Shown here one piece after another: positions 24,143 to 37,273 of a stretch of 64,000 bases of DNA. Positions within the stretch are counted from its first letter, which is position 1. Each line of letters begins with the position of its first letter. The notes beneath the pieces are model-generated. The model saw nothing but the letters and a program-made list of their open reading frames with translations. It did no database searches and was not told the origin of the DNA. The DNA is taken from positions 1,116,001 through 1,180,000 of the forward strand of contig NZ_CP049362.1 of the NCBI RefSeq assembly GCF_019343455.1, written 5' to 3'. The position numbers and the translations under genes were made by a program. The stretch comes from Alcaligenes ammonioxydans. Its GTDB lineage: Bacteria; Pseudomonadota; Gammaproteobacteria; Burkholderiales; Burkholderiaceae_B.

Positions 24143-24382
24143 TCAGCCATCAGCCTCCTCCTTCTCAGCCAGCTCGGGCCAGATGTGTTGCCAGTCGTCA
24201 GGGCGTAGGTCGCGGCGAGTTACTGCGCCATTGGTGGCGCGTTCAATTGCGGCGCATCGTTCCACCGGAACTGGGCGCATACCATTCGCCCAGTGATAGA
24301 CCGATACCGGCGGCACCCCTATTGCACGAGCAATACGAGACTGCGATCCGCGTTCGAGTTGGGTGTATTGATATAGATTCAT
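24143..24382 (-). CDS. Cro-like regulator (YdaS-type helix-turn-helix)
   Basis: The 79-residue protein carries SQSRIARAIGVPPVSVYHWA near its N-terminus, a helix-turn-helix of the YdaS/Cro kind, followed by RPVPVERCAAIERATNG. It is transcribed away from the repressor gene across a shared operator region and is the first gene of the leftward lytic operon, so it should act as Cro, shutting repressor synthesis during lytic growth. The ATG falls only 6 bases after a good -10 box, so the mRNA is probably leaderless. Confidence 0.82.
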   Translation of the reverse strand: MNLYQYTQLERGSQSRIARAIGVPPVSVYHWANGMRPVPVERCAAIERATNGAVTRRDLRPDDWQHIWPELAEKEEADG

Positions 24383-24388
24383 GATTTC

Positions 24389-24417
24389 ATATTAGCGTTT
24401 CGCTAATAGTAAGTCAA
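24389..24417 (-). promoter_or_regulatory. Leftward early promoter (PR-like), leaderless start
   Basis: On the minus strand TTGACT (24417-24412) and TAATAT (24394-24389) are separated by 17 bases, a near-ideal sigma-70 promoter. The Cro-like ATG at 24382 lies about where transcription should start. The palindromic operator at 24391-24407 covers the -10 region. Confidence 0.75.
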
Positions 24418-24455
24418 TCGCGTTTCGCGTATATAAAGTCTTAGCGTTTTGCTAT
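24391..24455. promoter_or_regulatory. Three immunity operators between cro-like and repressor genes
   Basis: Three related inverted repeats lie in the divergent region: ATTAGCGTTTCGCTAAT (24391-24407), CGCGTTTCGCG (24419-24429) and TTAGCGTTTTGCTAT (24441-24455). The consensus TTAGCG-N3-CGCTAA recurs at the second early promoter (25631-25671). The number and spacing match a lambda-type OR, presumably bound by the CI-like repressor and the Cro-like protein. Confidence 0.8.
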
Positions 24456-24467
24456 CAAATTAAACAC

Positions 24468-25178
24468 ATGAAAGACATTGATGAAATCCGACGCGTCAAC
24501 CTCCGTCGCCTTGAAGAAGAGTCTGGGAGCCCTTCTGCTGCCGCACGTCTGCTTGGCATGTCACCGGCTCAATTCATGAACCTGAGAGATGGGGCAAAGG
24601 ATTCCAGGACAGGAAAAAGACGTGGCATGCGCAAAGAGACTGCGCGCCGGATTGAGGAAAACTCCGGTAAACCCTTCGGATGGCTTGATATTGACCATGA
24701 GGCCGACGGAGATGCAATGGGGGTTAGCTCCCTAACAGAATCCACATCAGGATCCGTTACCATCAGCCAATACCAGACAGGAGGGCGAATGGGTGCGGCA
24801 GGGATAGAATTACGTGACCAGCCCGGAGTAATAGAAAGCTGGCGCGTCAGCCGAGAATGGCTAGAAAAAAACGTGAAGGGCTACTCACGCGTAGATAGCC
24901 TTTGCATTGTGACTGGCTTCGGGGATTCAATGCGCCCGATGTTCAACTCTGGCGATCCACTTATATTGGACTCCAGCATCAAGACCGTGGAATTTGACGC
25001 CGTCTACTTTTTCCGTGTAGGTACTGAAGGATTTATTAAGCGCCTGCAACGAGTTCCGGGGAAAGGATTGCTGGCCATCTCAGAGAATCCAGCCTATAGG
25101 GACTGGGTGATAGATCAAAGCATGGACTTTGAAGTGTTTGGGCGTGTCCTAAAGGTTTGGCGCAGTGAAGACTTCTAG
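24468..25178 (+). CDS. Prophage repressor, LexA/CI-type with autoprotease domain
   Basis: The 236-residue protein has an N-terminal helix-turn-helix region (about residues 8-40, with SPSAAARLLGMSPAQF) and a C-terminal S24 peptidase fold. The Ser/Lys dyad is Ser154 in FGDSMRPMF and Lys191 in FIKRLQR. Ala111-Gly112 is a candidate self-cleavage site. Such repressors bind early operators and inactivate themselves when RecA filaments form, giving SOS induction. It is divergent from the Cro-like gene across three operators. All catalytic elements look intact. Confidence 0.9.
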   Translation: MKDIDEIRRVNLRRLEEESGSPSAAARLLGMSPAQFMNLRDGAKDSRTGKRRGMRKETARRIEENSGKPFGWLDIDHEADGDAMGVSSLTESTSGSVTISQYQTGGRMGAAGIELRDQPGVIESWRVSREWLEKNVKGYSRVDSLCIVTGFGDSMRPMFNSGDPLILDSSIKTVEFDAVYFFRVGTEGFIKRLQRVPGKGLLAISENPAYRDWVIDQSMDFEVFGRVLKVWRSEDF

Positions 25179-25589: not shown

Positions 25590-25612
25590 ACCGCCTCACG
25601 GCGGTTTTTTTT
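25590..25612 (+). terminator. Terminator after repressor transcript
   Basis: ACCGCC and GGCGGT form a 6-bp stem around a 4-base loop, followed by eight T residues. It should end the repressor/membrane-protein transcript before the rightward early promoter. Confidence 0.85.
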
Positions 25613-25630
25613 CGTCTAGCGCAAACTTGA

Positions 25631-25674
25631 TTAGCGTTTCGCTATTGACTTTCAAGTTAGCGTTACGCTAACAT
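25631..25674 (+). promoter_or_regulatory. Rightward early promoter (PL-like) with two operators
   Basis: TTGACT (25645-25650) and TAACAT (25669-25674) are separated by 18 bases. One operator (TTAGCGTTTCGCTAT, 25631-25645) touches the -35 box and another (TTAGCGTTACGCTAA, 25657-25671) covers the spacer and -10 box. The arrangement corresponds to PL/OL of lambda and should be repressed in the lysogen. Transcription would begin near 25681. Confidence 0.78.
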
Positions 25675-26168
25675 TCATTCCAACGCTTCACCAACCGCAG
25701 AACACCTTTAGGCAAAGCCACGGTAAGTAACGGTCCATAGAGCGCCAGCAGCAAAGGCTGCGCCCGCTACGGCGGAGGCTCTTTAAAAATCAGCAGTGTG
25801 GTCCACACCAGTCCTACGGATTGGTGAATAACGGCACACGAAAGACGCTGCGCACTGCCGTGAGGTGTAGGTGCGCCTGGTGAACAGAGGGAGACGCGCT
25901 GCGTATGCCCTGGCAAAAAGATGGCAGAAAAAACCGGATAGATACATTCCCACGATTGGTGTGAGACGCCTACAGGCGTGGGGTCCGGCGCTCCCCTGAT
26001 GTAGTTGGTAGGGGACGGTAAGGAAACCGTACCGCAGTACTTACGGAACCGAGCAGCTTTCCCGGTCCAACCGGGAAACGCCGTGCAAGTCGGCAGCCTG
26101 CGCCAGCCATCGCGGTATCTTGGCGGCGCAGGGCGTATCTAAAACCGTCCTGTGGTAGGTCGGTTTTT
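25675..26168 (+). ncRNA. Candidate structured leader RNA or phage noncoding RNA
   Basis: About 490 bases without a credible frame lie between the operator-controlled promoter and the first gene. Several strong hairpins follow one another: CACCAGTCC/GGATTGGTG (25806-25826), ACGCC/GGCGT near 25965-25980, ACGGT/ACCGT near 26015-26030, TTTCCCGGT/ACCGGGAAA with a 3-base loop (26058-26078), and CCTGCGCC-A-GCCA/TGGC-GGCGCAGG (26097-26132). The stretch ends with an AAAACCG/CGGTTTT hairpin and T-run (26141-26168). It could be an antitermination leader, an attenuator for the Acb2 gene, or a free regulatory RNA. No Rfam class is recognised by eye. The hairpins are seen; the RNA is inferred. Confidence 0.5.
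26141..26168 (+). terminator. Terminator/attenuator before the Acb2-like gene
   Basis: AAAACCG (26141-26147) pairs with CGGTTTT (26161-26167), with an inner CCT/AGG pairing, and is followed by T residues. It lies 15 bases before the Acb2-like start codon, so it would release the structured RNA upstream or attenuate the early operon. Confidence 0.55.
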
Positions 26169-26182
26169 CATGCGAGAGGTAT

Positions 26183-26407
26183 ATGGACAATCAACATAAA
26201 CACATCAAGGGCTATCGAGATTTGTCGGAGTCCGAGATTGCAGCAATGAACGAAGGCAAGGAACTGGCCGAGAAGGTCGGTGCTTGGATAGAAAAGCTGC
26301 AGGCTGATAGCTCTTTGGATCAGCGTGCTGTGGCCTTGGGAAAAACCAACCTGCAGCAAGGCTTCATGTGGGCTATTCGCGGTATTGCCCAGCCCACTAC
26401 TTTTTAA
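26183..26407 (+). CDS. Acb2/Tad1-type anti-CBASS protein
   Basis: The 74-residue protein matches the compact Acb2/Tad1 hairpin family: HIKGYRDLSESEIAAMNEGK, then a helix with KVGAWIEKL, then RAVALGKTNLQQGFMWAIRG and a terminal AQPTTF. Family members assemble into small oligomers that sequester cyclic oligonucleotides (Acb2: CBASS cyclic di- and trinucleotides), blocking the abortive-infection effector. It is the first gene after the early promoter, fitting an anti-defence role at once after infection. GAGAGG precedes the ATG. The family call is by pattern; which signal it binds cannot be read. Confidence 0.75.
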   Translation: MDNQHKHIKGYRDLSESEIAAMNEGKELAEKVGAWIEKLQADSSLDQRAVALGKTNLQQGFMWAIRGIAQPTTF

Positions 26408-26423
26408 ATAAAGCTGACTCCCG

Positions 26424-26591
26424 ACCAGGCGGGCCGCTTCGGCGGATCTCCTCAGGCTCGCGGCGGGCCACCTGGTAAAGCCGAAGCGGCACTGATACTG
26501 ATCAGCTCCCTCTGCCAGATGAGGGCCTTCCAGCCGCAGCATTCCCATTCCCCTCACTTTTTCGATATCAGTACCGCCCATGCCTGGGCGG
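26424..26591 (+). ncRNA. Second structured noncoding stretch, pseudoknot-like
   Basis: Between the Acb2-like gene and the next gene (26408-26718) no frame is convincing. ACCAGG (26424-26429) can pair with CCTGGT (26471-26476), and GCCGCTTCGGC (26433-26443) with GCCGAAGCGGC (26480-26490), 11 of 11. The two pairings cross, giving a pseudoknot or two exclusive states. GGCACTGATA (26488-26497) pairs with TATCAGTACC (26566-26575) with one mismatch, and CCGCCCA-TGCC-TGGGCGG (26574-26591) is a perfect hairpin. A regulatory RNA, an operon attenuator or a DNA-level site (origin, binding site) are all possible. Confidence 0.4.
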
Positions 26592-26718
26592 CGGGAGTGC
26601 TGCGCCTGGAGGGTTTTGAAGAACTCCGGAAAACACCAACACCGCGCCGGTGCGCAACGGCCGTGACGGTGTGGCCTGCAAGCTTTTCCCCTCCTGTTCT
26701 TTCTATTAGGAGCGTTAC

Positions 26719-27012
26719 ATGCAAGTTCATTCACCTAACTTTCTGCTGGCGCGTCGTCGTCGGCAATTGCGTGACGCGGCGATTACTGACTCTCCTGCAA
26801 TCGCCCGTCGCACCTATGGCGCCAAACGGCCCAAAGTAGTCATTGGCCGTCAGTGGCGTGGTGGTGCCATCCAGATCCAGCCTGCAGTATTTCTGCCCGC
26901 CCCGGCTGAGCGCTGGAGCTCGCTTCGCAAAGCAGCACGGTTTGCTGCTTGCGCATTCATTCCTGTTGTTGCCACTGTCGGCGGCTGGTTGTCGGCCGGC
27001 GGCTCGTTCTGA
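26719..27012 (+). CDS. Small basic hypothetical protein with C-terminal hydrophobic helix
   Basis: The 97-residue product starts after TTAGGAGCGTTAC, a good ribosome-binding site. It is Arg-rich at the N-terminus (LLARRRRQLRDAA) and ends in a hydrophobic helix (about residues 74-95, FAACAFIPVVATVGGW). No family is recognised. It is co-directional with the recombination genes and ends 13 bases before the Cas4-like start. Confidence 0.55.
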   Translation: MQVHSPNFLLARRRRQLRDAAITDSPAIARRTYGAKRPKVVIGRQWRGGAIQIQPAVFLPAPAERWSSLRKAARFAACAFIPVVATVGGWLSAGGSF

Positions 27013-27025
27013 TTCGAGAACCCCT

Positions 27026-27841
27026 ATGCAAAACATCACTATCCGGGCCAGCTCGCTGAGCGACTTGTTTGACTGCCCGCAGCGCTGGTACGCCCGCAAC
27101 ATCCTCAAAATGTGGATGCCAACCAATTTCAAGGCTCGTCTGGGTACGGCCATCCATGCAGGTGCTGCGGCATTCGACCAGGCGCGGCTGGATGGAGCGC
27201 CTATCACTGCTGACGATGCTGCTGGCGTCTTGGTGGATACGCTCTACCGCAAAACTGACGAAAGCGGTGAAGACGAGCAGGTGGAATGGGAAGGTGAAGA
27301 TCCCAGCCGTTACGAGCAAATCGGGTTGGCTCTGCACACCACCTACTGCAATGGCCTGGCACTGGAGCAGGACTATGTGGCGGTGGAGCTTCGCTGCGAA
27401 AACCTGCATTTTCAGGATCTGGGCCTGACGCTTACCGGTACCACGGACCGTGTCTATCGTGACGCCGACGGCAAGCTGGGCATTGCGGACATTAAGTCTG
27501 GCGGTACCGCAGTCGCTGCTGATGGCACGGTCAATACAGGCGGGCATAAAGCACAGCTGGGGGTTTACACCGTGCTTGCTGAATATGCCATCGGCCATCC
27601 GCTTGACGCCCAGGCCAAGATCATCGGCATGCAAACCGGCAAAACACCAAAGGCCCAGCGCGTAGCCGAAGGGTATATCGACGGCGTCCGCCAAGCCTTG
27701 GTGGGCGATGACGATGATCCCGGCCTGTTGGAGCATGCCTCCAATCTTCTTCATGCGGGCAAGTTTTACGGAAATCCCCGCTCCATGCTGTGTAGCGAGA
27801 AATTCTGCCCAGCATTCGCAACCTGCAAATTCCGAGGATAA
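27026..27841 (+). CDS. Cas4-like PD-(D/E)XK nuclease of the recombination operon
   Basis: The 271-residue protein has the RecB/Cas4 nuclease pattern: LTGTTDRVYRDADGKLGIAD, then IKSGG, giving the Asp...Asp-x-Lys metal-binding core. Cysteines at DCPQRWY near the N-terminus and at LCSEKFCPAFATC at the C-terminus are placed as in the iron-sulfur cluster of Cas4/AddB-type nucleases. It precedes a RecT-like annealase, so it probably makes the single strands that the annealase pairs. ATG 27026 is preferred to the longer frame starting at 26843, which overlaps the preceding gene. Confidence 0.82.
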   Translation: MQNITIRASSLSDLFDCPQRWYARNILKMWMPTNFKARLGTAIHAGAAAFDQARLDGAPITADDAAGVLVDTLYRKTDESGEDEQVEWEGEDPSRYEQIGLALHTTYCNGLALEQDYVAVELRCENLHFQDLGLTLTGTTDRVYRDADGKLGIADIKSGGTAVAADGTVNTGGHKAQLGVYTVLAEYAIGHPLDAQAKIIGMQTGKTPKAQRVAEGYIDGVRQALVGDDDDPGLLEHASNLLHAGKFYGNPRSMLCSEKFCPAFATCKFRG

Positions 27842-27846
27842 ATCCC

Positions 27847-28857
27847 ATGGCAACACAACAATCAGCCTCCACCAGCTTGGCTCAGGCTCGTCAAGGCGCT
27901 CAAGCAGCGCCACCAGTCGTTGCAGGTTTCTTTGACCTGCAGGGATTTGAGTTGATGCAGCGCACGGCTAAAGCTTTTGCATCCTCCAGCTTGGTCCCGC
28001 AGCAATATCAAGGGAATCTGGCTAACTGCATGATCGCCATGGATATGGCTCAACGTATCGGCGCGAACCCGCTGATGGTCATGCAGAACCTCTATATCGT
28101 GCATGGCAACCCCGGCTGGTCCAGCAAGTTCTTGATTGCCACCATCAACGTGTGTGGCCGGTACAGTTCCTTGCGCTACGAGTGGAAAGGAAAGCCTGGG
28201 AGTGATGATTTCGGCTGCCGTGCTTGGGCGATTGAGAAAGCAACGGACGAGCGCCTGGATGGAATCTGGGTTACTTGGGAAATGGTGAAAGCCGAAGGCT
28301 GGCACAGCAAGAAAGGCTCCAAGTGGGCAACGATGCCCGATCAGATGTTTGTGTATCGGGCGGCAGCATTCTGGCAACGTGCCTATGCCCCGGAATTGGG
28401 TATGGGTCTAAGCACTGCAGAGGAATTGGCAGATGTGATCGACGCCAAGACGGGGTTGGACGGCTCCATTCAGGTGGATGTGGATGCGTTACGCGCTCAG
28501 GGCGAAACACAACAAGCCGCGAAAGCGGGCGATGCCCCTAACGAGAACGTCACAGACGTTGAACTGACCGAAGCCAAGGGTCAGAAGGCTCAGGAAGATA
28601 ACTCGCAGCCGCCAGCGCAGGACTATCTGGATGCTGAAAAGGTGTTGGCCAACATTCAAGGCTCCAAGGATCACGAAATTCTTAGTCTGGCAGCCGACAA
28701 CATTCAAGACTGCCATCCGGACGAGCAAGAACGTCTGAGCGCCGCATACCGCCAACGCCTGGACGAGCTGGACGGCGTTGTTCACGTGACAGCGGATCAA
28801 CCAACCCAAGCCCCCGAACAAACTCGCACCCGCCGGGCTGCAGCTGATATGGAGTAA
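27847..28857 (+). CDS. RecT-like single-strand annealing protein
   Basis: The 336-residue protein has the RecT-family core in its first 210 residues: a helix with ELMQRTAKAFASSSLVP, then NLANCMIAMDMAQRIGANPL, then VHGNPGWSSKFLIATIN. The C-terminal 120 residues are acidic, low-complexity and probably disordered. The family anneals complementary single strands in phage recombination, partnered with an exonuclease, here the Cas4-like protein 5 bases upstream. Confidence 0.82.
   Translation: MATQQSASTSLAQARQGAQAAPPVVAGFFDLQGFELMQRTAKAFASSSLVPQQYQGNLANCMIAMDMAQRIGANPLMVMQNLYIVHGNPGWSSKFLIATINVCGRYSSLRYEWKGKPGSDDFGCRAWAIEKATDERLDGIWVTWEMVKAEGWHSKKGSKWATMPDQMFVYRAAAFWQRAYAPELGMGLSTAEELADVIDAKTGLDGSIQVDVDALRAQGETQQAAKAGDAPNENVTDVELTEAKGQKAQEDNSQPPAQDYLDAEKVLANIQGSKDHEILSLAADNIQDCHPDEQERLSAAYRQRLDELDGVVHVTADQPTQAPEQTRTRRAAADME

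Positions 28858-34745: not shown

Positions 34746-36381
<1,636 letters not shown>

Positions 36382-37196: not shown

Positions 37197-37273
<77 letters not shown>

Follow-up and report, generated by a model that had tools for sequence, protein, structure and literature searches.

Antitermination in the early operons of phages is known mainly in two forms, namely, protein N acting at short nut sites and the short put RNA. The leaders of bacterial rRNA (rrn) operons carry the elements boxB, boxA and boxC and engage NusA, NusB, NusE, NusG and SuhB. The published boxA consensus is GYTCTTTAANA, and in boxA-regulated host genes such as suhB, boxA is located near the start codon and represses (PMC5725501); in Enterobacteriaceae rrn leaders, boxC follows boxA at 18–19 nt (PMC10250234). 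The put RNA of phage HK022 is characterized as an RNA of about 70 nt with two stem-loops that needs no boxA (PMC9378689, with no mention of boxA).

Here, we describe a 508-nt segment (25675–26182) of a prophage in the 3.77-Mb genome of Alcaligenes ammonioxydans that, judging from its sequence, probably serves the left (PL-like) early operon as an antitermination leader of the boxA/Nus type. All coordinates refer to the window, that is, the whole stretch of 64,000 nt that was analyzed (contig NZ_CP049362.1, positions 1,116,001–1,180,000). An unusually long antitermination leader was among the options raised in a preliminary description of the segment, and it is the one favored by the consensus boxA, the position at a left early promoter and the relatives at the same position in other phages. 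No description of such leaders was found in the literature searched.

The prophage encodes an S24-peptidase repressor (24468–25178, plus strand) and, divergently, a YdaS/Cro-like protein (24143–24382, minus strand). An intrinsic-terminator-like hairpin on the plus strand (25590–25612; stem 25590–25605, 6 pairs, then Ts) appears to close the upstream, repressor-side transcript, and is followed by a plus-strand sigma70-like promoter (TTGACT-18-TAACAT, 25645–25674), from which transcription would start near 25681. This promoter matches the consensus at only 9 of 12 positions and, with 2 sigma70-like matches in the region compared with 2.5 expected from shuffles, is weak when taken alone. Two operator-like palindromes, to which no strand is assigned, lie over the promoter (25631–25645 and 25657–25671), and the same palindrome recurs beside the repressor start, between the repressor and cro genes (24392–24406 and 24441–24455); 7 matches were found at no more than 3 mismatches, with 1.01 expected and none of 100 shuffles reaching 7. 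Because palindromes resembling TTAGCGTTTCGCTAA overlie the promoter and also flank the start of the repressor gene, the leader is probably controlled by the repressor.

At the other end, a plus-strand terminator-like hairpin (26141–26168; 7 pairs, a U-U mismatch, 4 pairs, then Ts) shortly precedes the first gene, and the predicted energy of 26136–26174, which includes it, is −11.9 kcal/mol. This hairpin corresponds to the 12-bp stem with one bulge reported previously, and together with the promoter and the ATG at 26183 it upholds the earlier placement of the segment between an operator-overlapped promoter and a terminator. The first gene encodes a 74-aa Acb2/Tad1 hairpin-domain protein (26183–26407, plus strand; PF24729, E 5.7e-19) and is followed by genes for a PD-(D/E)XK exonuclease (at 27026) and a RecT-like protein (at 27847). 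We take this order, from the repressor and the divergent YdaS/Cro-like gene through the leader to the acb2-like, exonuclease and RecT-like genes, to be the lambda-type left operon layout. An upstream divergent Cro homologue was identified at 8 of the 21 leader loci tested. In the annotated phage vB_BaM-IFTN1, genes for a repressor and a TerB-like protein precede the leader, and the operon after it reaches exonuclease VIII; the annotation of this phage includes a hypothetical gene of 135 bases that spans the leader on the minus strand.

The anchor of the leader is its boxA (GCTCTTTAAAA, 25778–25788, plus strand), which had been overlooked in the preliminary description, as had the modular build of the segment. 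This element fits GYTCTTTAANA and is one base off the boxA of the host rrn operons (GCTCTTTAACA), differing solely at the N position; the host boxA is present in all three rrn operons, about 185 nt before the 16S rRNA gene, and is repeated after it. The source genome contains 13 sites matching GCTCTTTAAMA (6 in rrn operons, 2 in prophage leaders and 5 elsewhere), compared with 4 for the reversed control pattern, and the 9-base core of boxA occurs twice in the window, a count equalled by 3 of 100 shuffles. Across the leaders, boxA is positioned 9–170 nt after the −10 element, with the longest distances derived from poor promoter matches; the separation is just 9 nt in L099, L103 and L110. Among the scans of viral contigs, the one that used a 17-base core of the leader tail can test for boxA, the other patterns having included CTTTAAMA. 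Of the 14 viral contigs containing this 17-mer, 9 presented leader contexts, all with a same-strand boxA 219–361 nt upstream, and the remaining 5 were judged by eye to be unrelated sequence. When tail matches from viral and genome loci were considered together, a same-strand boxA-like site was detected in 20 of 28 and an antisense one in none, in a set that includes near-duplicate loci; L026, L028 and L029 had no tail match in this comparison. NusB and NusE would be expected to bind the boxA of the leader.

Compared with an rrn leader, the prophage leader has nearly the same boxA and likewise a GTGTGG motif downstream of it, at 7 nt instead of the 15 nt seen in the host rrn leader; the full boxC (UCUGUGUGGG) is absent from the leader, and what follows is its own 255-nt body and an mRNA rather than rRNA. 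With the lambda nut sites, at which protein N acts, it shares the presence of boxA in an early phage leader and the left-operon position, but its class of leaders (class I, below) lacks a conserved boxB-like loop, no N-like protein was found in common downstream of the leaders, and the body is several-fold longer. The resemblance to HK022 put consists in a structured RNA just after PL and a proposed action in cis, and would extend to independence from protein factors if that were shown for the prophage leader, whereas boxA and a length of about 255 nt set the prophage leader apart from a small RNA with two stem-loops. As in suhB-type genes, boxA is found outside rRNA, but in those genes it is close to the start codon. 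The Rfam family RF02917 resides inside bodies of another class (class II) that replace the class I body after boxA in sister phages, and the window does not match it. Because defining features that were tested are lacking, we do not file the leader as a nut site, put, an rrn leader or RF02917; its organization is best explained by a mode of action like that of an rrn or nut leader.

The segment has no convincing reading frame, as noted earlier: internal ORFs span only 42–56 aa and the indels in alignments of homologues are not multiples of three. A 188-aa minus-strand ORF (26168–26734) overlaps its final bases. The minimum free energy of the segment, −204.2 kcal/mol, is lower than in all 100 dinucleotide shuffles (z −3.2). 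In number, the hairpins of the segment, characterized earlier as hairpin-rich, are unremarkable, given that perfect stems of at least 7 bp were as numerous or more so in 73 of 250 sliding 508-nt windows and in 162 of 1000 shuffles. Two hairpins had been singled out as perfect, with 9-bp stems and 3-base loops; the one at 26058–26078 (plus strand) is perfectly Watson-Crick paired, and such a hairpin arises in 10 of 1000 shuffles, but the one at 25806–25826 (plus strand) contains a G-U pair. The case for RNA structure depends on covariation, not on the number of hairpins. A search of the whole window against Rfam at the gathering threshold returned two tRNAs only and left the leader unmatched, and a lenient search of 25600–26200 produced a single match, ascribed to chance (Erse, E 4.1). 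The two tRNA matches are both on the minus strand (36308–36381 and 37200–37273), about 900 bases apart, with equal scores of 62.6 bits.

BLAST comparison of the 508 bases with 268 genomes of the family produced matches in 43 at E ≤ 0.01, many of them weak. The strong matches form blocks, namely, a 5′ module (bases 1–115 of the segment; module A), the class I body (bases 106–376) and a tail (bases ~377–458; M3), with boxA marking the point where module A meets the body. The predicted fold of module A (25675–25788, plus strand) is a three-way junction, the outer stem of which includes part of boxA. Among 12 distinct homologues, both sides changed in 5 of its 27 predicted pairs, all of them in hairpins. 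The stem that involves boxA shows no covariation, and two of the 12 sequences, the window among them, have lost one of the 7 pairs of this stem. That module A hides boxA and serves as an optional on/off switch is a speculation from this predicted fold. The tail M3 (26062–26132, plus strand), which contains GCCGTGCAAGTCGGCAG, is common to several classes of leaders and is also present in 8 Bordetella avium phage records.

The class I body extends from GTGTGGTCCACACC to TTACGGAACC (25796–26050, plus strand) and is represented by 10 distinct sequences (alignment A1), of which the 8 full-length ones make up alignment A2; L045 and L055, whose 3′ halves differ, are omitted from A2, repeated identical contigs were counted once, and two of eight genome contigs found by pattern (L080 and L084) were dropped as chance matches. 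In class I, some relatives have A in place of Y in boxA (GATCTTTAA), and L055 has ATTCTTTAA. The A2 alignment predicts 9 helices in about 255 nt, including a long-range closing helix (helix 3) between 25858–25868 and 26037–26046 on the plus strand, in which 98.8% of the cells across 10 pairs are paired and one pair changes on both sides; the stem of the 25806–25826 hairpin (helix 2) also varies with changes on both sides. The preliminary description had named covariation in homologues as a check, and such covariation is present: in A2, both sides changed in 12 of 54 pairs, a count that, like that for class II, is inflated by relatedness among the sequences, compared with a shuffle mean of 5.2, and none of 500 shuffles reached it. 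With the partners slid by 1–3 columns, only 0–1 such pairs were obtained. For one of the five covariation measures, that of further pair types, 422 of the 500 shuffles attained the observed value. The comparison with Rfam and related prophages, also proposed earlier, yielded class I homologues among the relatives and no match to the segment in Rfam. Together with the results for class II below, these patterns indicate that the folds of both classes are under selection. The consensus energy of class I is nearly the same for the leader strand (−48.35) and the opposite strand (−47.39), and the shared pairs in A1 contain 13 G-U and 10 A-C cells; covariation leaves the folding strand of class I undecided, and solely the orientation of the promoter and boxA points to the plus strand.

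Class I was found only within the family of the window, in the sequences searched. A covariance model of its 5′ domain, built without boxA, matched the source genome alone among 399 genomes of the order, under stricter filters, and the window alone among 24 sources, so that class I has a narrow range and shows no recognizable homology to the other classes. No match was found in plasmids. Further classes comprise the leaders in L047/L089, L053, L046/L048, L040/L042 and L024/L025/L034/L035, and the class I model failed to recognize those among them that were tested with it.

The class II body contains RF02917 (Burkholderiales-2, typed Cis-reg) on the opposite strand in all 8 leaders scanned (L005, L012, L013, L016, L056, L098, L103 and L109); the strand given in Rfam may be wrong. 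The RF02917 covariance model (threshold, 67.9 bits) did not match the window but was matched above this threshold by class II leaders; RF02917 was detected in 4 of 399 genomes of the order. Class II bodies were found in 19 viral contigs with a pattern that includes boxA. In an alignment of 27 sequences (A3), from which L107 (cut) and a chance hit in L052 were excluded, 20 of 36 pairs changed on both sides, compared with a shuffle mean of 7.8 and none of 500 shuffles reaching this value; sliding the partners by 1–3 columns gave 4–8 such pairs. The consensus energy shows a mild preference for the leader strand (−36.2 versus −30.8). In four class II loci of other families, the only boxA-like sites are divergent; in one genome hosting such a site, 3 of 5 rrn operons were examined and had no boxA-like site upstream of 16S, and in two others the 16S search gave no match. 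The source genome itself has a second boxA leader (L013/L041), composed of module A and a class II body, such that two classes occur in one host.

Gene calling downstream of the leaders was crude (ATG plus a purine-rich site, at least 40 aa), with probably spurious picks in L038, L044 and L083; on this basis, a gene was predicted at 33 of the 36 leader loci, and the first genes are mostly unrelated. Behind class I leaders lie the acb2-like gene (the window and L073) or other genes (L043, L045 and L055). The acb2-like gene is also found behind a leader of class II (L109), and one and the same small gene comes after class II leaders (L099 and L101) and a leader of another class (L040).

Under the antitermination reading, RNA polymerase would transcribe boxA once the repressor leaves the operators, and it would be bound by the host machinery of rRNA operons, namely, NusB and NusE together with NusA, NusG and possibly SuhB. 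The structured body after boxA could then stabilize or specialize the Nus complex, and the modified polymerase would pass the hairpin at 26141–26168 and any Rho sites, allowing expression of the acb2-like and recombination genes, presumably with no phage protein being required. Several observations speak against this reading: in 3 of the 27 class II bodies (L006, L007 and L114), boxA is missing from the nearest 45 nt, any terminator-like hairpin is present in only 10 of 36 leaders (the AAACCG...CGGTTTT type in 7 of 36), no boxA was found on the cro side of the prophage, and some boxA-like sites are divergent.

An unlikely alternative, with which the occurrence of boxA in nut sites agrees, is a nut-type site in which boxA and a protein-bound hairpin serve an unrecognized arginine-rich, N-like antiterminator in each phage. 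At seven loci, a downstream gene indeed specifies a small protein containing an RTRRRN stretch, and the 97-aa ORF at 26719 in the window has an arginine-rich start, but apart from the window, only L073 was found to encode the protein of this ORF. No downstream family extends beyond 16 of 33 loci, the largest consisting of small proteins linked by hydrophobic segments, and only 7 members possess RTRRRN. In class I, neither the length nor the sequence of the loop is conserved in the hairpin closest to boxA. No convincing candidate for an N-like protein was detected downstream of the leaders, 8 of the 36 loci having less than 2 kb of downstream sequence.

The satellite P4 has a regulatory RNA that acts in immunity. 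A discrete regulatory RNA of this kind, with the transcript usually ending at 26168 and the RNA itself being active, would fit the terminator-like hairpin at the leader end, the extensive structure and the lack of an ORF, but the scarcity of such hairpins among the leaders and the constancy of boxA, while bodies are swapped between classes at the same place, make it rather improbable. Repression mediated by boxA, as in Escherichia coli suhB, whereby the Nus complex would lower expression of the downstream gene, is quite improbable: boxA outside rRNA can repress, but the search in PMC5725501 covered 50 bp around start codons, whereas in the prophage leader boxA is separated from the first gene by 395 nt, with a conserved structured body in between. 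The preliminary description had also suggested an attenuator specific to the acb2-like gene; the position of the terminator-like hairpin, immediately upstream of the ribosome-binding site of this gene, and the acb2-like first gene of L073, a locus of the same class, agree with this idea, but the mostly unrelated first genes behind similar leaders, with the acb2-like gene behind class II and other genes behind class I, render it highly implausible. A DNA-level element (an origin or protein-binding site) with the hairpins as cruciforms would accord with the near-equal folding potential of the class I strands and with GTGTGGWCCACAC, an invariant near-perfect DNA palindrome in class I, but hardly merits consideration in view of the promoter-like site upstream and boxA being confined to one strand.

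If the antitermination reading is true, the long, modular, boxA-headed leader would represent a third layout of phage early antitermination, the orphan motif RF02917 would gain a context as a part of such leaders, and the compact natural variants would make it possible to test how a strong antiterminator of phages can arise from boxA alone. More tentatively, it is possible that temperate phages of Burkholderiales draw on a set of large, interchangeable leader RNAs. The host ribosomal boxA would be the fixed dock of these leaders, and a swappable body of 200–300 nt would set the strength or specificity of antitermination that needs no phage protein; in some of them, the added 5′ module would conceal boxA within a three-way junction and might act as an on/off control of the system.

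Several other features of these early regions were observed. In 7 of the 33 loci (the L036:2912 region and six others), spanning classes I, II, III, V and VI, the small protein with the RTRRRN stretch, which is conserved and also contains a hydrophobic segment, is encoded 1.8–3.3 kb downstream of boxA. In L006 and L007, a boxA-headed leader belonging to another class is followed, after about 490 nt, by the boxA-less class II body (L006, 2106–2285; L007, 2092–2271), in tandem. The early regions of related phages contain other Rfam RNAs, namely, RT-15 in L109 (6070–6252, 165.9 bits) and sRNA-Xcc1 in L056 (7158–7244, 68.1 bits). In the window, a second GC-rich noncoding stretch is situated 3′ of the acb2-like gene (26408–26718), and copies of 26420–26500 with about 80% identity are present in L039, L041 and L049, 1.1–1.3 kb downstream of boxA.
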